From positions 62,001-126,000 of the forward strand of contig NZ_JAIKLE010000012.1 in NCBI RefSeq assembly GCF_022267315.1: a stretch of 64,000 nucleotides of DNA, read 5' to 3'. The position numbers and the translations under genes are program-made. Positions 19,635 to 31,416 of the stretch are shown here, in pieces (position 1 is the first letter of the stretch; every line of letters starts with the position of its first letter). Below the pieces are notes generated by a model, which did no database searches, was not told the DNA's origin, and worked only from the letters and a program-made list of their open reading frames with translations. Source of the stretch: Maribellus maritimus (GTDB lineage Bacteria; Bacteroidota; Bacteroidia; Bacteroidales; Prolixibacteraceae).

Positions 19635-20216
19635 ATGACAGAAGCCGAAATCATAGAAAAACTTCAAAACGGTAGCGAACAAGCGTTTAAAGAGCTGGTT
19701 GACAAATACCAAAAATTGGTTGTAAATACCTGTTTTGGAATGCTGCATGATAAAGACGATGCCGAAGATGTGGCGCAGGATGTTTTTATCGAAGTTTTTC
19801 GTTCTGTTCAGAGTTTTAGGGCCGATTCAAAAATTTCGACCTGGTTGTACCGAATTGCTGTAAACCGCTCGCTGAATTTTATCCGCGACAATAAAAAACG
19901 CAAGTGGTTTCAATCGCTTGACGATACAGTGAAATCAAAAAATGCCATTTTTGAAAAATTTACTTCGGGAGACAGTGATGATGCTGATTTTAATCTTGAA
20001 AATAATCAGAGGGCAAATGTGTTGCATGAAGCTATTAACTCGTTACCGGAAAATCAGAAGGTAGCTTTTTCACTCAATAAATATGAAGACCTGTCGTATA
20101 AGGAAATTTCAGAAGTGATGGACCTTTCAGTTTCATCCATCGAATCGTTAATTCACAGGGCTAAAAAAAACCTACAAAAAAAATTATATACCTGCTACAA
20201 AAAAAAGTGTATTTAG
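19635..20216 (+). CDS. ECF RNA polymerase sigma factor
   Basis: A 193-aa sigma-70 family factor. Region 2 is clear (DKDDAEDVAQDVFIEVF, STWLYRIAVNRSLNFIRD), and region 4 carries the helix-turn-helix (LSYKEISEVMDLSVSSIESL). There is no region 1 or 3. It is followed 47 bp later by a zinc-finger anti-sigma factor, then a metal-sensor-like protein, so the set looks like a self-contained envelope-stress regulon. The C-terminus is Lys-rich. Confidence 0.93.
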   Translation: MTEAEIIEKLQNGSEQAFKELVDKYQKLVVNTCFGMLHDKDDAEDVAQDVFIEVFRSVQSFRADSKISTWLYRIAVNRSLNFIRDNKKRKWFQSLDDTVKSKNAIFEKFTSGDSDDADFNLENNQRANVLHEAINSLPENQKVAFSLNKYEDLSYKEISEVMDLSVSSIESLIHRAKKNLQKKLYTCYKKKCI

Positions 20217-20263
20217 GTGCAAGTTATAACTCAGAATTGTGTCATATAAACAACAAGCAAAAA

Positions 20264-20701
20264 ATGAAATGCAAGACAATACATAAAAATTTAATTTTCT
20301 TTCTCGAAGGAGACTTACCGGAAAAAGAAGAAAAGCAAATTGAAGCACATATTTCAAGCTGTAACGAGTGTTCAGCGTTTGCACAAGACTTGAAAAAAAC
20401 GCTTGGGATTATAGAAAAAGAAAAAACGACAGAAACAAATCCGTTCTTTTACACCCGGTTAAAAGCTCGTTTGGAATCTCAGGCTGAACCTGCAAAAGTT
20501 CCGTTCTGGAAACCGGTTTTGGTTAACATTATTCAACCGGTATTTTTCTCGATATTACTGATCGCCGGGATCTATACTGGTTTTAAAATTGCTACTCCTG
20601 TGCAGGTAAATACTGCTTCTGTACATTATACATCCGAAGAAATTTTTCCATATTTGAATGAAATGCAGTCGGAACCGATTGAAGGATTTTTAATGGAGTA
20701 A
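20264..20701 (+). CDS. Zinc-binding anti-sigma factor (ZAS, zf-HC2)
   Basis: A 145-aa membrane protein. The HxxxCxxC motif of ZAS domains is at His29, Cys33 and Cys36 (EAHISSCNECS), followed by one transmembrane helix at about 79-104 and a short periplasmic tail. It should hold the upstream ECF factor inactive at the membrane. I chose the ATG at 20264; a longer frame begins at a GTG overlapping the sigma gene but adds residues with no homology. It ends 3 bp before the next gene. Confidence 0.85.
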   Translation: MKCKTIHKNLIFFLEGDLPEKEEKQIEAHISSCNECSAFAQDLKKTLGIIEKEKTTETNPFFYTRLKARLESQAEPAKVPFWKPVLVNIIQPVFFSILLIAGIYTGFKIATPVQVNTASVHYTSEEIFPYLNEMQSEPIEGFLME

Positions 20702-20704
20702 GCA

Positions 20705-21232
20705 ATGGTAAAATCAAATAAATACAGGATTCTGATTTGGGCAATTGCCATTCTGCTGGCAACCAATATCTCCATGGGCTTTTCATTTTTTTATCACAAA
20801 ATGCAGGATAAAAAAACGATGGAACAAACCGAAGAGGTAGCTATTGAAGTTCCGGCAGAGCGACGCACGCGTTTTTTTAGAGAACAATTAGACCTGCGTT
20901 TTGATCAGATGGATACTTTTCGTGAGTTGAACAGAAGTTTTAATCAGAAAGCCTGGAAAATTAACCACGACCTGGAAGCGCTGAGACATGAAATGGTTGA
21001 AGAAATGGGGAAAGAAAGTCCGGTTCAGACAAAACTCGATTCCATTTCAGTACAAATAGGAGAATTGCATACCGAACTAAAAAAAGAAACTATTGCCTAT
21101 TATCTGGCGATGAAAAACGAATGCGATGAGCAACAGCGCGAAAAACTGAATGAAATTTTTATGTCGGTACTGCAAAAAAACGAAGATGTTAAATTACCAA
21201 AATACGGTAGAAACAGATTAAATAGAAGGTAA
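20705..21232 (+). CDS. Periplasmic heavy-metal sensor-like protein (CnrX/ZraP type)
   Basis: A 175-aa protein with an N-terminal membrane anchor (about 8-28) and an all-helical periplasmic part: FFREQLDLRFDQMDTFRELNRSF, a long charged helix, and AYYLAMKNECDEQQREKLNEIF. This antiparallel helix hook is typical of CnrX, ZraP and CpxP relatives, which sense metals or misfolded proteins. Sitting 3 bp after the anti-sigma factor, it is a likely co-sensor of the sigma system. The metal, if any, cannot be told. Confidence 0.75.
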   Translation: MVKSNKYRILIWAIAILLATNISMGFSFFYHKMQDKKTMEQTEEVAIEVPAERRTRFFREQLDLRFDQMDTFRELNRSFNQKAWKINHDLEALRHEMVEEMGKESPVQTKLDSISVQIGELHTELKKETIAYYLAMKNECDEQQREKLNEIFMSVLQKNEDVKLPKYGRNRLNRR

Positions 21233-21263
21233 AAACAAAAATTCAATTTAAAATTTTAAAATC

Positions 21264-21782
21264 ATGAAAATTAGCAAGTTAAAAAAATTTGCCGGGGTAT
21301 TTTTTGCCCTCGCATTAGGAACAAGCACTCTTTTCGCTCAAGGGTGGAGAAACGGAAACAGAGCATTTGCTCAGAACAATGAAAGAGTTACCTGTGTAAA
21401 CTATCTTCCCGATTTAACAGATGATCAGGTTGAATCCATCACAGCACTGGAGAACAAACACCAGGAACAAATGGATGTATTACGAGACAAAAGACGTGCA
21501 ACAGCAAACTGGGATGAGAAAGATATCATCAGGGAAGAAATGTTGGAGAATGTAGTTGCACATCGAATGGAAGTAAAAAAATTACTCACTGAAGATCAAC
21601 AAAAAGAGTACGAACTTCTTCAGTTACGTGGAAATAATTATAGAAATCAACGAATGGCTTATCAGCGCGGAAATGGGGCCGGATACGGAAACCAGCAGGG
21701 TTTCGCGAGAGGAAACAGAGGAGGATCCAGAGGGGCCGGATATGGCAGAGGATATTACAGAAATTGTCCACGGTTCAATTAA
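21264..21782 (+). CDS. Spy/CpxP-like exported protein with Gly/Arg-rich tail
   Basis: A 172-aa exported protein (signal peptide ending LFAQ). Two LTxxQ motifs at 51-55 (LTDDQ) and 108-112 (LTEDQ) frame a helical hook, as in Spy and CpxP chaperones. Residues about 122-170 are a low-complexity tail rich in Gly, Arg, Asn and Tyr, ending NCPRFN. Spy-like proteins protect periplasmic proteins and are typical outputs of envelope-stress sigma factors, so it is probably both in the operon and a target of the sigma factor upstream. Confidence 0.75.
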   Translation: MKISKLKKFAGVFFALALGTSTLFAQGWRNGNRAFAQNNERVTCVNYLPDLTDDQVESITALENKHQEQMDVLRDKRRATANWDEKDIIREEMLENVVAHRMEVKKLLTEDQQKEYELLQLRGNNYRNQRMAYQRGNGAGYGNQQGFARGNRGGSRGAGYGRGYYRNCPRFN

Positions 21783-21846
21783 ACAAACAACAGATTAATG
21801 TTATCCCCCAAGGTAACTTAACAATATTCAAACAAAAATTAATGTT

Positions 21847-22596
21847 ATGAAAATCAGAAAACTATTATTCAACGCCTTTTTGGCCATCGGTTCAGTTCTA
21901 ATGGTATCGTGTTCCGAAACAATCAGTCAGGTAGAAGAAACGCTGGCGACAGCCGATGAAGAAAAAAGTAGTGAAATAGCACTTGCTCCAGGCGATAGTT
22001 GTACTTTTTCAGGGAGTCTGACAGATGCAGAAGTTGCAGGACTGATGGAGATGCGCGAAGAAGAAAAACTGGCACACGATGTTTATTCTTCGTTTTTTGA
22101 AACCTACAACTATGTAATTTTCGACAACATTTCAAAGAGTGAAAGTGCACACACCAGTGCCGTTTTATACCTGATGTCAGGTTACGGACTCGAAGATCCG
22201 GCAACGGATGAAGCAGGTGTTTTTTCAAATCCGATGTTTAGTGAATTGTTCGCATCATTAACTGAAGATGGATCTGCAGGTCTTGTTGAAGCTTTAAAAG
22301 TGGGTGCATTTATTGAAGAGTTTGATATCAACGATTTACAAAACCACTTGGAGGAAACTCAAAATGAAGATGTAATTCGGGTTTACTCAAACTTACTACG
22401 TGGCTCTAAAAACCATTTGAAAGCCTTTACTTTTGCCTTGTCGCGCCAGGGCGAAACCTACACTCCTACTGTAATTACTGAAGAAGAGTACCACAAAATT
22501 CTTGACGATTCAAATACTTCAGAATGGACTCCGGGATATTACTATTACAATTCCAATGATTCTACTACTTGCGATGGAACCGGACCCAATTTTTAG
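21847..22596 (+). CDS. DUF2202 ferritin-like lipoprotein
   Basis: A 249-aa protein with a lipobox (LMVSC, Cys22) and a DUF2202 domain. MREEEKLAHDVY (Glu71-73, His77) and SESAHTSAV (Glu99, His102) look like the metal-ligand pairs of a ferritin-like four-helix bundle, with DINDLQ and GSKNHLKAF providing the second pair of helices. DUF2202 proteins are envelope proteins without a proven activity; a di-metal site is inferred. It ends the sigma-factor locus and is followed by a strong terminator. Confidence 0.82.
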   Translation: MKIRKLLFNAFLAIGSVLMVSCSETISQVEETLATADEEKSSEIALAPGDSCTFSGSLTDAEVAGLMEMREEEKLAHDVYSSFFETYNYVIFDNISKSESAHTSAVLYLMSGYGLEDPATDEAGVFSNPMFSELFASLTEDGSAGLVEALKVGAFIEEFDINDLQNHLEETQNEDVIRVYSNLLRGSKNHLKAFTFALSRQGETYTPTVITEEEYHKILDDSNTSEWTPGYYYYNSNDSTTCDGTGPNF

Positions 22597-23891: not shown

Positions 23892-24515
23892 TTACTTTAT
23901 CAATGTCAAACCTTCGGTAGCCGACTCATCGTTTGGATTATACAAATGAACTTTATGAAACAAGACTTTTGCCTGGTTGTAATTCCCTAAAAAATAGGAA
24001 GTCCAGCCGAGCATTAACAGCCCGTCGTAGCCAAACGGATATAAATCGACTACCTTTTTAAAGAGCGGATAAGCCCTGGAATAATCTTTACGACCATAGT
24101 AAACCAAACCTAAACGGTACATGGCAACGGTATTGTTTGGATTAATTTCCAGGATTTTATCGTAAAGTTCTATTACTTCGTCCCAACACCCAAGCGCAGC
24201 TTTTGGTAAAATCAATCCAAAGCGGGCTTCCTCGGAATATGGTTTTAATTCCCGCGCTTTGTTATAAAAAATGGTAGATTCGTCAAATAAACCGGCATTA
24301 TAATTTAACCAACCCAGCCGCAGGTTAATTTCGTACGATGACTCATCGTATACTTTTTTTAACGGATCCATTGCAGCTTTAAAATCTCCGTTTTTCTCCG
24401 ATGTGTAACTTTTTGCAAACGCGTCTTCCAAAAGTTCCTGGTTATTCTGTGCCCACGCTGAAAAAGAAAGTAGCACGAGTAGAACCAAAATGCTGTTTTT
24501 TCTCAAAAATTCCAT
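23892..24515 (-). CDS. TPR protein, exported
   Basis: A 207-aa protein with a signal peptide (ending SAWAQ) and about five tetratricopeptide repeats: YEINLRLGWLNYNAGLFDES, PYSEEARFGLILPKAALG, NPNNTVAMYRLGLVYYGRKDYSRAYPLF, YDGLLMLGWTSYFLGNYNQA. It overlaps the TPR-barrel gene by 13 bp and is the last gene of the six-gene operon. It is likely a periplasmic scaffold for the barrel protein encoded before it; this is inference from linkage. Confidence 0.8.
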   Translation of the reverse strand: MEFLRKNSILVLLVLLSFSAWAQNNQELLEDAFAKSYTSEKNGDFKAAMDPLKKVYDESSYEINLRLGWLNYNAGLFDESTIFYNKARELKPYSEEARFGLILPKAALGCWDEVIELYDKILEINPNNTVAMYRLGLVYYGRKDYSRAYPLFKKVVDLYPFGYDGLLMLGWTSYFLGNYNQAKVLFHKVHLYNPNDESATEGLTLIK

Positions 24516-25825
24516 GATATTCCTGCGGTTAAAGTGTGTTTTACGTAATTATATTCCAACGAGTTGCTTTTAACACCGCTGGTATAAACCTGATAATTTT
24601 CTTTAATATTTTGATTAATATATCTAAAAACAAGCTGGTATTTTTTCCCTACCGGAAAATACAAACTGCCCATAATCTTCTGGTCCGAGCTCCCGGGAAA
24701 ATTAGAAACTACATAACCGGCCGATTCAACAAAATTGCGCATATCACCGTTTAAATATTTCCCTGATAAATGAACCGGTCCCAACTGAACACCACCAGAG
24801 ATTTCAAAAGTGTTATATCCAAGACTTTCCGCCTTATCATTCCGAAAATACACCCGCGGAGTGATGTAAAAATTTGGTTTCGAAAAAGGATAATAGGTTA
24901 TCCATGCCGACATTTGGGTAAAACTTACATCAGAAATATTGGCCAAGTTTATTTCTGCTCCCGGTGAAAAATTTCCAAAATGCGACCATGTAGATGTTGA
25001 AAATATAAAATCGGAATATTTTAAGTTATACAGATAAAAGGTATTCGGATCATAATTCCCTAAAATCAATTCACTATTTCCCCAAACAATACTGGCTGAC
25101 GGAGAAACATACCATTTATTCCCCAACACAAAAAGAGGATTTATAAAATATTGAAATTGATTGACTTTTATTGGAAATTCATTTTTCGCCCCCCAGTAAA
25201 CCTGCTCCTCTTTGTTCATTCCTAAATACGTAAAATTATGACTCAGACTAACACCCGGGGCCAGCTGATGACTCAAATCAAACGACTCAAAATGATAATT
25301 TTCCAGAAAATATGCTTCTCCGTAATCATCATCAGCAATTAACTGCTCTTGATAGGAAACTTCACGTATTTTGTCGAAATCAGGATTAAAACTGTAGCCC
25401 CCTTCAAAGGCAATCCTTGAAATTTTTGCAGGAGCATAATTTATTTTCTGCTGAAGTGCCGGCGTAAAGTCTTTGGCATATTTTAGTGCCTCCGCCGTTC
25501 TTCCACCAAAAACCAAACTGTAGTATAAATACTCCTGCAGCCAATCAAACGACTGGTCATTTTCGTACGCTTTTAAAAACCATTTTGTTGATTTCCGATA
25601 CAGTTTTAAATTGTAGTAGGCAATTCCCGTACGTGCCTGTAAATAGAAAAAATCAATTCCATGATTCCGCGCTTCTTTTGAATATTTAATGATTTCAGCC
25701 CAGTTTTTTTGCTGATATAATTCATACGATTTTTTATCAACTTCAACATAGTTCCAGGTTTCCTGTGCAGAAACAGCCAGAAATAGCAGCCCAAAAACTA
25801 TTATTAATCCAACTCGTTTTGACAT
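24503..25825 (-). CDS. TPR plus outer-membrane beta-barrel protein
   Basis: A 440-aa exported protein (signal peptide ending LAVSAQ). Residues about 30-125 form helical TPR-like repeats. From about 145 the sequence turns into alternating strands typical of a YaiO-like outer-membrane barrel (EGGYSFNPDFDK, VSLSHNFTYLGM, NFYITPRVYF, TLTAGISWNF), ending in Phe. It overlaps the transporter/peptidase gene by 22 bp. In this operon it could form the outer-membrane exit or anchor of the pathway. Confidence 0.75.
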   Translation of the reverse strand: MSKRVGLIIVFGLLFLAVSAQETWNYVEVDKKSYELYQQKNWAEIIKYSKEARNHGIDFFYLQARTGIAYYNLKLYRKSTKWFLKAYENDQSFDWLQEYLYYSLVFGGRTAEALKYAKDFTPALQQKINYAPAKISRIAFEGGYSFNPDFDKIREVSYQEQLIADDDYGEAYFLENYHFESFDLSHQLAPGVSLSHNFTYLGMNKEEQVYWGAKNEFPIKVNQFQYFINPLFVLGNKWYVSPSASIVWGNSELILGNYDPNTFYLYNLKYSDFIFSTSTWSHFGNFSPGAEINLANISDVSFTQMSAWITYYPFSKPNFYITPRVYFRNDKAESLGYNTFEISGGVQLGPVHLSGKYLNGDMRNFVESAGYVVSNFPGSSDQKIMGSLYFPVGKKYQLVFRYINQNIKENYQVYTSGVKSNSLEYNYVKHTLTAGISWNF

Positions 25826-28029
25826 ATTAGTTTAATTTTATCTTCATTGAATTCTATATTAATTTCAATTTTTCCCTCCTGCCCTATTTTTATTTCAGCC
25901 AAAATTTTACCGGCTTCGCGGCCAAATATTTTTTTAGTTATTTCTGCGGTCATTTCAATATCTCCGGAAGACAAAATATCCCCGGATTCTTTCATTGTCA
26001 GCGCATAGTCCACTTTCAGAAAGAGAAAAACAGGCGCAATAAAATCCTGCAAAAATTTCAAAATCCCTCCAAACATCATGTTTAACGGAATACTGTCATT
26101 AATTTTGCTATTGGGCAGAAAACCCAGCGGCACTTTAAAAAGCGAAATAAAAAACCAGTAAAGTGCGGTGTTTTTAGATCCGGTGAAATTGGTAAAATAG
26201 TGCAAATCTTCATCGTTGTATAAATAAGCTTTTGCAGCATTTTGAGGGCATTGAATATAAGTCGTATTAAAAACATCGGTCTCAACTTCTAATTCGAAAT
26301 TACCAGCCAGTTTTTGCCATTTTTGTTTTTTTGAATCTACTTCAACATCAATTTTTAAGCGCTGCCCCGGAATAAAATGAAATGTTTCTGAAAGAATTTC
26401 ATTTTTTGAAGGATTTACAACCACCTGGTTATTCTTTGGGAAATCAAAATTTTTCTGAGTAAAACCATTTTCTTCTTTCAGCAAATAATGACCAAAAGGA
26501 TAATCGAGTGTCACAGAACCAATGTATGGAGTTGTTTGAAACTGAAAATGCAAATGCGGATATGGCGAACGCCCAGAATTTCCACATCGTCCAATAATTT
26601 GGCCCTTTTTAACCTGGTCGCCGGGTTTTACTTCCACTGAATGAAATTTCAGATGGCTGAGTTTGGCAAACAGATAATCGTTGTGTTTTATTATCACCGT
26701 GTTCCCCCAATTGGCCTTTGTATTAATGTCGCCAATCGTATTATCTTCAACATTATTTACTGCCTCAACAACTGTCCCGTCGAAAGGCGCAAGTACTGCT
26801 TTCCCAAAACAAAAATAGTCTTCATGAAAATCGCCTGAGCCTTTAAATTGTGCCCCGTTTTTATCAGTAATCACAAAATCCCATGCATGACGCCAGGCTC
26901 CTTTGTGCGTATGTTCGCCATTGTGTCCCTGATTAATAGTCCACTCGCCATAAAACGGTAACGAAGCTGAAACCGGGTAAGCAGAAGGAAAACGTTTTAG
27001 GTTACCGGAATACAAATACAGATTTTTCTCTGGTTTCCCCAACTGAACAGGCGTTTCAACCAGTTTCTTGGGCCGCACCTCACGCAGTTTTAATGCATAC
27101 AAAAACATCAAAACAATTACGTTGAACGGCAACGAATAGGGTGAAATTTTAAATGTTAAAAATATTTGCTGTGTGCTGGTTGTAATCAAAACCACTGCAG
27201 GAAGCAACAAAATTATCCAACCGTAACTCACTCTTCCAGGAACGAGGTAATATCCGCCAAGAGCAATTGCTGTTAAAATGTAGTTGAAGCCAATAAATGT
27301 GTATCCCAGCGAATTAAATTCGATTCCTACAAGGTGATAAAAAAGATACGCGATGGAATAACCTAAAATCGACAACACGAAAGTTATCCGAGAATAAATA
27401 AGTAAACCAATGGCAATGATAATTCCGGCCAGCAAATGGGTTTGAAAGAAAATTGCACCCAGTGAATGAAAATAAATCCGAATAAACGAAGACCGAATAT
27501 GAGTTTCAAGAAAATCGTAAAAATTTACAAATGCCTGCCCGCCCAAAGCATAAAGTTCGTTGTAGGTGTAAATTCCTCGTTCACTTATATTTAAAGCCGA
27601 AAGGTCGCCCGCAGAAAGCGCGACAACCCAAATGGCTAACAAAAAAGGAACACTTAAATAGGGCAATCCGTATTTCCCCAAAACACCCTGAAAAACAACG
27701 GTTAAAAAGAACGTAAGTATGGCCGCAACCGCAATTAAAATATACAACGGCACCGATGGCTGGTAAAATAAACCAACACCCAGCCCAACCAGCAGCGCAT
27801 TAAATCCATACAAGCCGGAATTCAGAAAATATTTATTGTACCCCAGAAAACGAGCCAGTGTATTTGCAATAAAAACGGAAATCAGTCCACCAATTCCCGC
27901 ACCGTAATCAAAAAAACTGATTACAATTAAAAATGCGGCAAGTAGTTTTGATTTTGAAAAAAATACCTGCGCGTAACTGTTTAAAACCGAATCAACAATA
28001 TCTTTCCCGTTCAAGGTGTTGTTTTTCAT
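25804..28029 (-). CDS. Urea transporter domain fused to an M23-type peptidase domain
   Basis: A 741-aa fusion. Residues 25-315 are about ten transmembrane helices of a urea transporter, with the two repeated UT signatures GFNALLVGLGVG (75-86) and GFNYILTAIALG (247-258). Residues about 360-505 are a LytM/M23 metallopeptidase-like domain: HAWDF (381-385), an APFDGTV segment, LSHLK (458-461), GxxxxxGxxIGRCGNSG, and HLHFQF (492-497). The rest to 741 is a beta-rich domain of unknown kind. The first metal motif is HxxD rather than the common HxxxD, so catalysis should be tested. It starts 8 bp after the decarboxylase gene. Confidence 0.85.
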   Translation of the reverse strand: MKNNTLNGKDIVDSVLNSYAQVFFSKSKLLAAFLIVISFFDYGAGIGGLISVFIANTLARFLGYNKYFLNSGLYGFNALLVGLGVGLFYQPSVPLYILIAVAAILTFFLTVVFQGVLGKYGLPYLSVPFLLAIWVVALSAGDLSALNISERGIYTYNELYALGGQAFVNFYDFLETHIRSSFIRIYFHSLGAIFFQTHLLAGIIIAIGLLIYSRITFVLSILGYSIAYLFYHLVGIEFNSLGYTFIGFNYILTAIALGGYYLVPGRVSYGWIILLLPAVVLITTSTQQIFLTFKISPYSLPFNVIVLMFLYALKLREVRPKKLVETPVQLGKPEKNLYLYSGNLKRFPSAYPVSASLPFYGEWTINQGHNGEHTHKGAWRHAWDFVITDKNGAQFKGSGDFHEDYFCFGKAVLAPFDGTVVEAVNNVEDNTIGDINTKANWGNTVIIKHNDYLFAKLSHLKFHSVEVKPGDQVKKGQIIGRCGNSGRSPYPHLHFQFQTTPYIGSVTLDYPFGHYLLKEENGFTQKNFDFPKNNQVVVNPSKNEILSETFHFIPGQRLKIDVEVDSKKQKWQKLAGNFELEVETDVFNTTYIQCPQNAAKAYLYNDEDLHYFTNFTGSKNTALYWFFISLFKVPLGFLPNSKINDSIPLNMMFGGILKFLQDFIAPVFLFLKVDYALTMKESGDILSSGDIEMTAEITKKIFGREAGKILAEIKIGQEGKIEINIEFNEDKIKLICQNELD

Positions 28030-28037
28030 CCAAATTG

Positions 28038-29378
28038 CTATTTTTTAGGATTCATTTCGAAGCTGGTTATGGTTTCCAGTTTTTCTTTATTCCGAATAAT
28101 ATGCGTTTTACCCTCCGTGTCAATCAAAATAATATTTGGCCGGAATGTAATAAACTGCATCCACTGGGTCATATTATATGCGCCAACCCGTTCAATAACA
28201 AGCTGATCTCCAACTTTTACTGATGGAAAATTTATGGCATCGCGAATAATATCGATATTCATACAAAGCGGACCATAAATAGTAGTTTCTTCCAAAAAAT
28301 CAGAAGTTTCCTTGGTCGGAAAAACACCCAGATTATACCAGAACGTTGTAAAAAGAATGTTTACTCCGGCATCAATTACCATCAAGCGGCGGCCAATAGA
28401 CGAACGTTTGTTGGCTAAAACTGTAGTGAGTAAATAACCGGCATCGTCAATCAGTGCCCTGCCGGTTTCAAGGAAAAGAACGGGTAGATTTTCATGCGGA
28501 ATTTCCGAAGAAATCAAAGCATTTGAAATGGCTTCTGCATATTCGTCAAACGACGGACAAGTTTCCGAACCCGGCATATAAGCGCCTTTTAGCGTATTTT
28601 TTGAAGCAAAACCACCGCCCAGATCAATATACTTTAACCAGTGATCAAATTTCCGGTGAGTAGCCATATAAAGATTTGCCAGTTTTGACGCAGCAACAGC
28701 GTAAGCAGAAGCGGACATAATATACGTTCCGATGTGTGTGTGCAGCCCGATTAAATCAAGACTTTCTGCCAACATTATCCGGTTAATGGCATTCCAGGCT
28801 TCTCCGTTTTCATAATTAAAGCCAAAACGGTCCCACATCGGATAAATACCAGTGTCCATATTTACCCGGATGGCAACCCGCGCTTTCTTATTTAGTTTCC
28901 GGGAAGTTTCAATCAGTAAATACAGTTCATCAAAATGATCGATGTGAATGCAAGCATTGTGGTTTATTGCTAAGGTCAAATCTTCTTCAGACTTTTCAGG
29001 ACCATTAAACAGAATTTGTGAACCATTTACGCCCAGCGAGAGCGCCTTTTCAAATTCAAATCCTGAAACCACTTCAGCCCAAGATCCCTCATCATGAAAA
29101 ATACTGCACACAGCATCCAGATAGTTGGTTTTGTACGACCAAGCAAACTGTACTTTCGGATAGCGGGTTTCAAATGCTTGTTTTGCCTCAGCATACGTTT
29201 CCCGAATAGTTTTTTCTGAAATCACAAATACCGGTGAACCATATTGTTCCATTAATTTTGACACCGGAATTCCATCAATTTCAGAAACTGTTTTTATTTT
29301 TGAAGGCAACCCGAATTTATTGGGCATCCCTGCCGTAATTTTACTGATAAGCGGCTTTTCATATTTTAACTTTTCCAT
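28038..29378 (-). CDS. Type III PLP-dependent decarboxylase (diaminopimelate decarboxylase-like)
   Basis: A 446-aa enzyme of the alanine-racemase fold (DapDC/ornithine decarboxylase family). Lys83 in SYKTN is the PLP lysine, HTHIGT is at 213-218, the phosphate-binding GGG at 254-256, ETGR at 304-307 and the partner-subunit Cys in GPLC at 369-372. Key specificity motifs differ from true LysA: EPGR is ETGR, the residue after Cys372 is Met rather than Glu (CMNID), and the end is GAYNMTQW. It therefore probably acts on another amino acid or a carrier-bound one. It lies 11 bp after the ATP-grasp gene. Confidence 0.85.
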   Translation of the reverse strand: MEKLKYEKPLISKITAGMPNKFGLPSKIKTVSEIDGIPVSKLMEQYGSPVFVISEKTIRETYAEAKQAFETRYPKVQFAWSYKTNYLDAVCSIFHDEGSWAEVVSGFEFEKALSLGVNGSQILFNGPEKSEEDLTLAINHNACIHIDHFDELYLLIETSRKLNKKARVAIRVNMDTGIYPMWDRFGFNYENGEAWNAINRIMLAESLDLIGLHTHIGTYIMSASAYAVAASKLANLYMATHRKFDHWLKYIDLGGGFASKNTLKGAYMPGSETCPSFDEYAEAISNALISSEIPHENLPVLFLETGRALIDDAGYLLTTVLANKRSSIGRRLMVIDAGVNILFTTFWYNLGVFPTKETSDFLEETTIYGPLCMNIDIIRDAINFPSVKVGDQLVIERVGAYNMTQWMQFITFRPNIILIDTEGKTHIIRNKEKLETITSFEMNPKK

Positions 29379-29389
29379 TTTCTGTTGTT

Positions 29390-30436
29390 TTAAATTTCCT
29401 TGTTCATTGAAATTGCTGCAAATTTTTCGAGGTCAACAATCATATCGTACGAATAGCGAACAAACATTTTCCCAATTTTATAGGACGTCATTGGCTGAAC
29501 TTCCTGCCCGAGTGCTAATTTTATTAAAGCTTCCGGAATATTTTGCCCGGCCCCAACGGCCAGATAGACCCAGGCAGGGATTCTCGGATTTATCTCAATC
29601 AAATAATACTCTCCTTTGCTGGTTTTAATCATTTCCAGTTCCATGCCGCCTTTCCATTTTGTTTTCTGAATAATAGAGCGAGTGAGTTCCATCATCTTTT
29701 CGTCAGCCAGAGTGATTCCCCCCCAGGCTTTTCCTTTGTCGGTAATATATTGTTTTCGCATCGGAACTGCCGCAATTGTATTCCCTTTTCCATCGCCCAA
29801 TGCAACTACATTCACTTCAATCCCTTTTACAAATTCCTGCGCAATTACAGGGAGTCCCCATTTCGATGAAATCTTGTAAAAAGCCTGCTTTACCTGTTCT
29901 TTATTACTGGCTTCGTAAGCATCATAAAACTGGCCTTTTATCATGACAGGATAATCAAATTTGTCTTCCATGTCGGAAATCTGATTTGTACTTCCCAGGT
30001 TGATGCTTCCCGGAACTTTCACATCGTACTTTTTACCAAACTCAGGTAACTTTTCTTTTTCTCTTTCCTGAAATTGTTTCAGGTTGGGCAAAAAGGTGTG
30101 GATTCCTTTATCAAGCAACCGCTGCTCATTTTTCATAAACGAAAAAAGTTCGGCGTCGAAATTCGGAATCAGCACATCGATTTTTTCCTGTTGATGAATT
30201 TTTTCAATCCGCTCAATCAATTCGTTCGAGCCTGAAGAAGGATAAGGAATCTGAAAAATCCGGTCGCACAAACCCTCCATATAAATTCCGGGTTCAAGGT
30301 TTTCGTAAACCAACCCAATTACCCGAACATCCAACTCTTCCGATTCTTTCGCTGCGCGAATCACTGGTACTCCCGGCCCCGGATTATCTGTATTATTCAA
30401 CCCGGTAACGGCCAATGTAATTTTTGTTTTTGCCAT
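29390..30436 (-). CDS. ATP-grasp ligase
   Basis: A 348-aa enzyme with the carbamoyl-phosphate-synthase-like ATP-grasp fold. An N-terminal Rossmann-like part (TGLNNTDNPGPGVPVIRA) leads into the ATP-grasp domain (DYPVMIKGQFYDAYEASN, VIAQEFVKGIEVNVVALGD, KGGMELEMIKT, and the metal-binding YYLIEINPRIPAW). Such enzymes join a carboxylate to an amine through an acyl-phosphate. The substrates are unknown. I place the start at 30436, 7 bp after the PqqD-like gene; an in-frame upstream codon would overlap it. Confidence 0.85.
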   Translation of the reverse strand: MAKTKITLAVTGLNNTDNPGPGVPVIRAAKESEELDVRVIGLVYENLEPGIYMEGLCDRIFQIPYPSSGSNELIERIEKIHQQEKIDVLIPNFDAELFSFMKNEQRLLDKGIHTFLPNLKQFQEREKEKLPEFGKKYDVKVPGSINLGSTNQISDMEDKFDYPVMIKGQFYDAYEASNKEQVKQAFYKISSKWGLPVIAQEFVKGIEVNVVALGDGKGNTIAAVPMRKQYITDKGKAWGGITLADEKMMELTRSIIQKTKWKGGMELEMIKTSKGEYYLIEINPRIPAWVYLAVGAGQNIPEALIKLALGQEVQPMTSYKIGKMFVRYSYDMIVDLEKFAAISMNKEI

Positions 30437-30443
30437 TTTGCGA

Positions 30444-30707
30444 TTAATTAAAATCGAGCGGATCGCCCTGTTCAAGAATTTGGTGATGTTTCAGCAACGC
30501 GCAGAATTCATAAAAATCCTTCTCAAAAGTAAGGTCATCAACATCATACTTTTCAAGCATTTCCTTTTTTATAAAATCAAAATCTTTTCCTGCCTGGATA
30601 TTTTTAATCAGTTCCAGGCCAAAAGGATTCAGATTAAATGAATCGCCGGTTTTTGAATTAAAAACAAACCCGTTATTACTAATCTTTACTTCTACAGCTA
30701 TTTTCAT
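30444..30707 (-). CDS. PqqD-like (RRE-fold) small protein
   Basis: An 87-aa protein that matches the PqqD pattern: GFVFNSKTGDSFNLNPFGLELIKNIQ, then DFIKKEMLEKYDV and a C-terminal helix EKDFYEFCALLKHHQIL. PqqD-like domains form a winged helix that binds leader peptides in ribosomal-peptide pathways and hands them to modifying enzymes. I use the ATG at 30707; a longer frame extends upstream but only adds basic, unrelated residues. It is the first gene of the six-gene operon. No precursor peptide was found next to it. Confidence 0.75.
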   Translation of the reverse strand: MKIAVEVKISNNGFVFNSKTGDSFNLNPFGLELIKNIQAGKDFDFIKKEMLEKYDVDDLTFEKDFYEFCALLKHHQILEQGDPLDFN

Positions 30708-30814: not shown

Positions 30815-30867
30815 GCATTAATATTGTTTAACACTTTTCATAATTAACCATTTTTAATTTTTTAGTC

Positions 30868-31416
30868 ATGAAAACAATAGCAAGTTTATTTTTAGTTTTA
30901 GCGTTTATCATTACAACATCGTGTGAAGGACCAGTTGGCCCTCCCGGCCCTCCCGGAGAACCAGGATTTGATGGAATAGATGCAGAAATCGGAACTGTTT
31001 TTGAAACCGATCCGATTAACTTTACTGCCGGAAATGAATATTCAGTTCTTTTCGATTTCCCAAGTAATTTTACAGTCTATAATGAGGATGTTGTTCTGGT
31101 TTATATTTTATGGGATGTTTGGGATGGCAAAGATATCTGGAGATTACTCCCTCAAACAGTTGTTATAGAAAACGACGGTGTTGTTCAGTACAATTTTGAT
31201 TATACAGTTGAGAATGTACAAATCTTTCTGGAATGGACAACATCAGAATTGCTCCCGGCAGAAACAGATAATCAAATATTCAGAATTGCAGTTCTTCCGG
31301 CGGCATCTATGCAAGACAAGTCATTTGATATAGGCAATTTTGATTCAGTAATGAAATCAATGAATAAAAATCTGAAATCGATTAAAAAAATTGATTCTTC
31401 AATACAAATGAATTGA
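30868..31416 (+). CDS. Lipoprotein with a short collagen-like stretch
   Basis: A 182-aa protein. The lipobox TTSC gives Cys19, and directly behind it come five or so Gly-X-Y triplets rich in Pro (GPVGPPGPPGEPGFDG), like bacterial collagen-like stalks. The remaining 140 residues are beta-rich (NEYSVLFDFP, VVLVYILWDVWDG, VQIFLEWTTSELLP) and end in a Lys/Ser-rich helix. The Gly-X-Y run is short, so it may be only a rigid spacer between the lipid anchor and the domain. The gene ends in a strong terminator shared with the Crp-type gene. Confidence 0.8.
   Translation: MKTIASLFLVLAFIITTSCEGPVGPPGPPGEPGFDGIDAEIGTVFETDPINFTAGNEYSVLFDFPSNFTVYNEDVVLVYILWDVWDGKDIWRLLPQTVVIENDGVVQYNFDYTVENVQIFLEWTTSELLPAETDNQIFRIAVLPAASMQDKSFDIGNFDSVMKSMNKNLKSIKKIDSSIQMN

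Follow-up and report, generated by a model that had tools for sequence, protein, structure and literature searches.

A conserved two-module operon of Bacteroidota with a possible role in the synthesis and passage of a decarboxylated conjugate

What could a bacterium make, and where could it send the product, with a PqqD-like protein, an ATP-grasp ligase, an amino acid decarboxylase, a urea-transporter channel fused to a metallopeptidase and a putative outer-membrane barrel encoded side by side? This question is raised by a six-gene operon in a 64,000-nucleotide stretch of the Maribellus maritimus genome (7.3 Mb; G000); the whole of this stretch, positions 1-64,000, is referred to below as the window. 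We found that the operon is real and widespread among Bacteroidota, and that it consists of two separable modules, a cytosolic triad (PqqD-like protein, ATP-grasp enzyme and decarboxylase) and an envelope module (the fusion of urea transporter, UT, and M23 domains, the barrel and a TPR protein). The explanation that we favour, tentatively and as a possibility that falls somewhat short of probable, is a conserved Bacteroidota system of biosynthesis and passage, in which ligation would be followed by decarboxylation and the product would move through the UT channel and then the barrel.

The listing of open reading frames agrees with the layout given by an initial sequence-only reading of this DNA: six frames run in one direction, all on the minus strand, and of the junctions between them three are gaps (7, 11 and 8 bp) and two are overlaps (22 and 13 bp). 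The features are as follows (PLP, pyridoxal phosphate).

30444..30707, minus strand: PqqD-like small protein, 87 aa from an inner ATG (Pfam PqqD)
29390..30436, minus strand: ATP-grasp enzyme, 348 aa from an inner ATG (Pfam ATPgrasp_Ter; catalytic residues invariant)
28038..29378, minus strand: alanine-racemase-fold (type III) PLP decarboxylase, 446 aa (FigC-like C-M active-site pair)
25804..28029, minus strand: UT/M23 fusion protein, 741 aa (urea-transporter channel, M23 domain and, at about aa 512-741, C-terminal beta-rich region)
27091..27996, minus strand: UT channel domain, aa 12-313 of the fusion (Pfam UT; filter residues Q21, L80, S126 and F195 kept)
26536..26805, minus strand: M23 metallopeptidase domain of the fusion, Pfam match aa 409-498 (predicted cytosolic)
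24503..25825, minus strand: putative outer-membrane beta-barrel, 440 aa (N-terminal TPR-like region and putative signal peptide)
23892..24515, minus strand: TPR protein, 207 aa (putative signal peptide; probably periplasmic)
21847..22596, plus strand: DUF2202 putative lipoprotein (Pfam DUF2202; a recurrent neighbour, not a core part)

The PqqD-like frame has an alternative reading of 124 aa with a start at 30818, and the start originally called for the ATP-grasp frame is a TTG at 30475. Five domains exceeded their Pfam cut-offs, namely PqqD (25.3 bits vs 23.4), ATPgrasp_Ter (43.5 vs 29.1), Orn_Arg_deC_N in the decarboxylase (106.7 vs 23.4) and, in the fusion protein, UT (195.3 vs 25) and Peptidase_M23 (64.1 vs 28.7). 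Several TPR models of Pfam matched the TPR protein, and the barrel protein showed no Pfam or NCBIfam match. The terms "barrel" and "signal peptide" were assigned by eye, from a hydrophobic start and an aromatic C-terminus; among the aligned barrel members, 13 of 26 matched TPR_1. Membership of the barrel in the YaiO family was also considered and was dropped for lack of a match to that family.

Gene order was traced with the UT/M23 alignment as the bait. Relatives are encoded in at least 531 stretches from the species-genome collection, and the best 80 named loci were kept; because of this choice of bait, the linkage counts at these loci are conditional on UT/M23. Among these best 80 of at least 531, all six genes are present in the same order in 34 of the 39 loci with more than 4.5 kb of flank on both sides, the other five being L048, L068, L069, L100 and L106. 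Where the upstream flank exceeds 4.5 kb, the decarboxylase and ATP-grasp genes each lie on the same strand within 7 kb at 44 of 48 loci and the PqqD gene at 43 of 48; downstream flanks of this length contain the barrel gene at 56 of 56 loci and the TPR gene at 54 of 56. The frames of the latter two share exactly 13 bp at 59 of 64 loci. Of the 43 loci that contain the complete triad, 32 have a decarboxylase match starting no more than 1560 bp from the UT/M23 match, a spacing that leaves no room for an extra gene between them. Genes inserted at this point encode a member of an acyltransferase family (L051, L068), an IF-2B-like protein (L060, L066, L104 and L111; one member scanned, 99 bits) or a DUF302 protein (L089) and are too few to support any conclusion. 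The closest of the named loci belong to Prolixibacteraceae, e.g. Mariniphaga, Draconibacterium and Maribellus. Of the 29 best class-wide matches besides the window (L003-L031, about 1.5 kb of flank), 26 have an adjacent decarboxylase gene and 27 a barrel and/or TPR gene. The order thus recurs in other Bacteroidota, and the six genes do not lie apart in most relatives.

Beyond the class of the window, a phylum-wide draw detected the ATP-grasp gene in 34 of 395 genomes, 28 of these from other classes. In all 18 loci fetched from these 28 genomes, the decarboxylase and UT/M23 genes lie beside the ATP-grasp gene, and 15 of the 18 include a recognisable PqqD gene. At 11 of the 18, a barrel-like protein of 274-317 aa (again judged by eye), which lacks TPR, is encoded nearby in place of the TPR-barrel.

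We also searched 395 genomes of the window's own class for three of the proteins, each independently and without a neighbourhood bait. UT/M23 was found in 84 genomes (a count that includes copies cut by contig ends, five genomes that matched with the M23 part only having been dropped), the ATP-grasp enzyme in 76, the decarboxylase in 75 and all three in 73. The two enzymes occur together in 75 of the 76 genomes, and in the sole mismatch, G253, the decarboxylase gene runs off a contig end. UT/M23 is present in 73 of the 75 genomes with the decarboxylase; the other two, G261 and G268, are split into 390 and 250 contigs and encode both enzymes. The earlier proposal that the six genes form a unit is supported by both this co-occurrence (73 of 395 genomes) and the linkage (34 of 39 loci). 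At the thresholds used, UT/M23 was found without the triad in 10 genomes, three of which are accounted for: G209 is 68% complete, the G168 copy lies on a 5 kb contig, and in G307 a contig ends inside a decarboxylase fragment. Conversely, among eight genomes without the decarboxylase gene at the named UT locus, six encode the enzyme elsewhere, including all four cases with a long upstream flank (L048, L069, L100, L108); the remaining four of the eight loci have less than 2 kb of flank. Because the triad and UT/M23 lie apart in some genomes, we regard them as two modules that share an operon in most cases but not in all.

The chemistry of the triad is best constrained by the decarboxylase. Its mean column identity is 71%, and none of the 32 sequences deviates at K83, H215, E304, R307, C372 or M373. 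FslC/FigC is the top match in both NCBIfam and the PDB sequences, and FigC (7kh2) is the closest solved structure; the score against the FslC/FigC model is 242 bits, with a curated cut-off of 500. According to the available part of the FigC study, a methionine beside the catalytic cysteine replaces the aspartate that grips the side-chain amine in the ornithine/lysine, arginine and diaminopimelate decarboxylases, while docking placed His357 and Arg387 near the citryl group (PMC7857480). When the positions are mapped by hand onto the FigC alignment, the amine-binding aspartate is replaced by Met373 in all 32 sequences, and the positions of His357 and Arg387 are occupied by I375 and Q405, again in 32 of 32. 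These replacements suggest that the side chain of the substrate is probably already tied up, its amine being blocked by something other than citrate. Residues Thr344, Trp347 and Tyr348 lie in the specificity helix, and the residues of the enzyme are compatible with a citrulline-type substrate.

Two other identities of the decarboxylase were ruled out. In diaminopimelate decarboxylase (LysA), the specificity-helix arginine that binds the distal carboxylate lies in the motif RPxxY. The operon enzyme scores 228 bits against a LysA cut-off of 297.9, lacks this arginine, has a C-M pair rather than cysteine followed by an acidic residue, and coexists with a separate LysA in the same genome (L140; 306.9 bits vs 297.9, RPAMY motif, C-E pair). 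A basic amino acid (ornithine/arginine) decarboxylase is likewise excluded, by Met373 in place of the aspartate that would hold a free amine. The genome additionally encodes an arginine-decarboxylase-like paralogue (L142), which falls under its cut-offs and has a C-D pair.

The ATP-grasp enzyme appears equally intact, with K166, E265, E267, E280, N282 and R284 present in 33 of 33 sequences at a mean column identity of 73%. Its structure model (mean predicted local distance difference test score, pLDDT, 88.9) has 2pn1 as the best fold match (Z 28.4, root-mean-square deviation 2.6, 288 residues aligned), tied with biotin carboxylases (Z 27.7-28.0) and followed by glycinamide ribonucleotide synthetase (26.7), PylC (25.9) and an L-amino-acid ligase (25.7); the fold by itself does not point to a substrate. 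In one genome (G496:C1), equal-score ATP-grasp matches lie near both contig ends (3928-4959 and 3735344-3736375), probably due to redundancy of the assembly ends. Taking the invariant residues together with the comparison to FigC, the initial suggestion that the ligase and decarboxylase build a small molecule remains the best reading of the triad. One independent hint that the two enzymes act together comes from a Streptomyces zaomyceticus plasmid (NZ_CP108525.1, L161:11998-14274), which encodes a 758-aa protein, annotated as hypothetical, that fuses the two. Its ATP-grasp and decarboxylase domains are 30% and 23% identical to the operon enzymes, and the decarboxylase part retains the C-M pair (RSCMEND). 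The fusion gene is followed by genes for a 195-aa protein of no assigned function and a fatty-acid-desaturase-family protein, possibly a small natural-product cluster.

The third member of the triad, the PqqD-like protein, has a core of the form S-x-x-G-[FY]-x-F...G-[DE]-S-x-x-x-N in most homologues, and no C-terminal tail is conserved across the 62 sequences aligned. A role as a LysW-like carrier was ruled out by the absence of the conserved C-terminal glutamate. The sequence-only reading had noted that no precursor peptide is visible, and this holds for the flanks scanned: ATG-started frames (20-110 aa) were collected from the 1 kb before the PqqD gene and the 0.8 kb after the TPR gene, 639 in all, and no short frame is widely conserved. 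The largest family spans five loci, and the clusters inspected appeared by eye to be other frames or ends of neighbouring genes. Given that no widely conserved short frame adjoins the operon, a precursor peptide, if there is one, would be encoded elsewhere.

On the envelope side, the model of the UT/M23 protein (pLDDT 85.5; predicted template modelling score 0.76) contains a complete UT fold, with a TM-score of 0.84 to 3k3g (normalised to 3k3g); the score against the NCBIfam urea transporter model is 128 bits, under the cut-off of 274.6. Q21, which we compared with Gln24 of dvUT, presumably the corresponding filter position, is kept in 33 of 34 sequences, and the filter residues L80, S126 and F195 in all 34. 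The filter position that holds Glu187 in dvUT and glutamine in UT-A2 (PMC4357013, available part) is Ala192 in 34 of 34. Urea transporters have ten transmembrane helices (PMC10541013), and the loop between T5a and Pb is outside (PMC4357013), as far as the available parts of these sources describe. The complete UT fold puts the M23 domain on the same side as the N-terminus, and no hydrophobic stretch that would add a crossing was found between residues 314 and 371, the only segment profiled. With loops assigned by hand from the known urea-transporter topology, the side with the N-terminus and M23 carries on average 11.9 lysines or arginines (K/R) and 4.1 aspartates or glutamates (D/E) compared to 2.7 K/R and 7.6 D/E on the other side, and is richer in K/R in every one of the 34 UT/M23 rows, which are the only ones counted. 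Under the positive-inside rule, this excess indicates that the M23 domain should be cytosolic, and we conclude that it probably faces the cell interior.

The metal ligands and catalytic histidines of the M23 domain (H375, D384, H459, H492, H494) are invariant in 34 of 34 sequences. In one alignment (A4), 25 of 34 sequences have both of the cysteines C407 and C482 and the other 9 have just one of them; in another (A1), 12 of 16 have both, 3 neither and 1 one. Cysteine content per residue (0.0099 in the soluble part of UT/M23, 0.0016 in barrel plus TPR, 0.0071 in the decarboxylase, 0.0012 in the ATP-grasp enzyme) was dropped as a sign of a cytosolic M23 domain, because the cytosolic ATP-grasp enzyme is as cysteine-poor as the exported proteins. 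A seemingly natural fission of UT/M23 in G406 (L143:9944-12198) turned out to look like a frameshift at a run of A (this genome is a single contig), so nothing was learned from it on topology. Unfused relatives of the M23 part occur in the window's class itself. Others were seen on plasmids, in the five records inspected out of 92 that matched; these are from Haloplanus, Haladaptatus and Haloferax (the haloarchaeal L163, L164 and L166), Thermus (L165) and Thermomicrobium (L167). Some of these five have hydrophobic N-terminal stretches. Haloarchaea, to our knowledge, have no murein, so the substrate of their members of this M23 subfamily must be something else.

Taken together, these results fit a scheme in which the cytosolic ATP-grasp enzyme would join the side chain of an amino acid to a second group. 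The PLP decarboxylase would then strip the alpha-carboxylate of the ligated amino acid to give an amine-ended conjugate, ligation probably preceding decarboxylation. The PqqD-like protein would probably hold the partner, which may be a peptide. Either the product or a fragment freed by the cytosol-facing M23 domain would cross the inner membrane through the UT-type channel and then the outer membrane through the barrel, presumably in this direction, with the TPR protein as a periplasmic partner. The computed support for this scheme comprises the linkage, the co-occurrence, the intact catalytic residues, the lost amine-binding acid, the UT fold and the charge bias for M23 inside. A narrower and more doubtful proposition, which we consider rather unlikely, is that UT/M23 is a channel-coupled hydrolase, in which M23 at the cytosolic mouth of the pore would cut the triad product so that a fragment leaves via pore and barrel, or would process entering matter.

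Several observations weigh against this scheme. The topology of M23 rests on homology, hand-assigned loops and charge bias, and C407 and C482 may form a periplasmic disulfide. The UT-type pore is narrow, 2-3 angstrom at its constriction (PMC10541013, available part), and suits small neutral molecules, not amines. The Streptomyces fusion is distant from the operon enzymes and the only one of its kind among 72,556 plasmid records, and its ATP-grasp part falls under the Pfam cut-off (24.2 vs 29.1). Furthermore, seven genomes that are 96-100% complete (G041, G100, G115, G164, G220, G314, G374) encode UT/M23 and no ATP-grasp orthologue, G164 giving weak partial matches only (27 and 33%), and the barrel and TPR genes accompany UT/M23 in all five loci fetched from these seven genomes. 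An envelope module that lacks the triad in near-complete genomes is easier to reconcile with uptake, or with a role of its own, than with export of the triad product. Accordingly, of the initial claim that the six genes must work together, what stands is that they usually form one operon; the necessity does not, given that the triad is apart from UT/M23 in some genomes and missing from these seven. Three of the triad-less envelope modules (L125, L126 and L129, from G100, G164 and G220) have an extra TPR gene between UT/M23 and the barrel gene.

Of four alternatives, the first two differ in the placement of M23. The sequence-only reading had UT/M23 and the barrel move or attach the product across the envelope, perhaps to peptidoglycan and, in its full form, this explanation has the triad amine carried to peptidoglycan and attached there by UT/M23 and the barrel and places M23 in the periplasm. 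Most M23 domains are murein hydrolases, the zinc and catalytic residues are intact, the barrel and TPR proteins have putative signal peptides, and a C407/C482 pair could form a disulfide. However, the complete UT fold and the charge bias predict a cytosolic M23 domain, no additional crossing was found in the profiled segment, and the same subfamily occurs in murein-less haloarchaea; attachment to peptidoglycan is thus unlikely, and we consider envelope decoration of this kind quite improbable. A cytosolic M23 domain would instead suit leader removal in a ribosomal peptide pathway, in which PqqD would recognise, and the ATP-grasp enzyme and decarboxylase would modify, a precursor encoded elsewhere. 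The PqqD/RRE-type domain (RRE, RiPP recognition element), a feature of such pathways, is present above its cut-off, but the operon flanks, the only regions searched, yielded no short-frame family larger than five loci, and the ATP-grasp fold is nearest to enzymes resembling carbamoyl phosphate synthetase and to biotin carboxylases, the MvdC graspetide model scoring only 13 bits. We regard this pathway as unlikely.

The two remaining alternatives turn on the decarboxylase and on the separability of the modules. In a rhizoferrin-style metallophore pathway, the ligase would couple a diamino acid with a carboxylate before the decarboxylase acts, in line with the FslC/FigC matches of the latter and with the action of the FigC relatives SbnH and AcsE on citryl compounds of siderophores, as given in the available part of PMC7857480. 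The recurrent AraC-type regulator and DUF2202 neighbours described below would also favour it. Yet the citryl contacts of FigC are replaced, neither an NRPS-independent siderophore (NIS) synthetase nor a TonB receptor is encoded among the six operon proteins, and a siderophore would not pass the UT pore, so that a metallophore is, like envelope decoration, quite improbable. Least probable of the four, in our estimate, is the notion that the operon holds two independent units, with the envelope module as a urea/ammonia-type entry path and the triad making an unrelated metabolite. The modules do lie apart in some genomes and most UT filter residues are kept, but the ATP-grasp, decarboxylase and UT/M23 genes are together at all 18 loci fetched outside the window's class, the triad is nearly always accompanied by UT/M23 within it, and the position of dvUT Glu187 is invariably alanine.

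Several other genes recur around the operon. A gene for an AraC-type regulator with a Cys-Cys N-terminus was found in 21 loci, at most 270 bp from the first triad gene in 15 and on the same strand in 18. Homologues of the DUF2202 protein (168 bits for the window protein) occur in 22 loci including the window, 12-50 bp from the PqqD gene in five, and a 264-aa-type protein recurs in 18 loci, one member having a type IX secretion system (T9SS) sorting domain. Among Prolixibacteraceae, this recurrence may in part reflect shared ancestry of the region. In the window, the plus-strand set at 19635-22596 encodes a sigma-70-like regulator, an anti-sigma-like protein, two Spy-like-looking small proteins and DUF2202, the only one of these checked against Pfam; relatives of the set (clusters c10, c13, c12, c14 and c5) lie near the operon in several loci, mostly of Prolixibacteraceae. 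Diverging from the operon, positions 30868-31416 encode a small protein that looks secreted and has a short GPPGPPG stretch and a weak sub-cut-off match to the Pfam collagen model; its relatives (cluster c11) lie 0.2-1.4 kb from the PqqD gene in seven other loci.

The unit is carried by about one in five of the sampled genomes of the class (75 of 395 by the decarboxylase) and by some genomes from other classes of the phylum. If the favoured scheme is correct, it would yield a widespread undescribed Bacteroidota metabolite, a substrate specificity that is new for decarboxylases acting on conjugated amino acids, and a member of a metallopeptidase family whose work is not at the cell wall. Should UT/M23 be a channel-coupled hydrolase, it would also couple synthesis, hydrolysis and passage across two membranes in a new way, through an M23 enzyme with a target other than murein. 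In the literature covered, mainly openly readable journals with bioRxiv preprints outside the scope, no published description of the six-gene set was found; the six-gene system, with its combination of a PqqD-like protein, a channel-hydrolase and an outer-membrane barrel, is new in this respect.

The logic of ligation followed by decarboxylation is already known elsewhere, and the chemistry of the operon may be a variant of known pathways. In rhizoferrin synthesis, a decarboxylase of the same fold (FigC/FslC), with a methionine beside the catalytic cysteine, acts on a substrate whose side-chain amine a ligase (FigA/FslA) has already blocked; FigA belongs to the NIS synthetases rather than to the ATP-grasp enzymes, the rhizoferrin system is not known to have a PqqD, UT, M23 or barrel partner, and the operon enzyme differs from FigC by the absence of the citryl-contacting histidine and arginine. 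Butirosin synthesis likewise combines ATP-grasp ligation (by BtrJ) with subsequent same-fold decarboxylation of an amino acid bound to a carrier, the acyl carrier protein BtrI, and is not known to involve a channel or barrel. BtrK, the butirosin side-chain decarboxylase according to the available part of PMC8503589, is among the PDB matches of the operon decarboxylase. Here, the small protein is PqqD-like and no acyl carrier protein is encoded among the six proteins. The ATP-grasp enzyme shares its sequence family and fold with the ter-operon ATP-grasp (PF15632) and PRK12767-type (2pn1) proteins, whereas a scan of the six operon proteins and three flanking ones showed no product of the ter genes, which characterise the ter-operon system. 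With the urea transporters (dvUT, UT-A, UT-B), the UT/M23 protein has in common the complete fold and most filter residues, and it differs in the fused M23 and C-terminal regions and in the invariant alanine of the filter. With the M23 (LytM-type) metallopeptidases, it shares the fold and the metal-binding and catalytic residues; unlike the usual M23 motif, in which three residues separate the corresponding histidine and aspartate, it has eight residues between H375 and D384, and it is predicted to be cytosolic.

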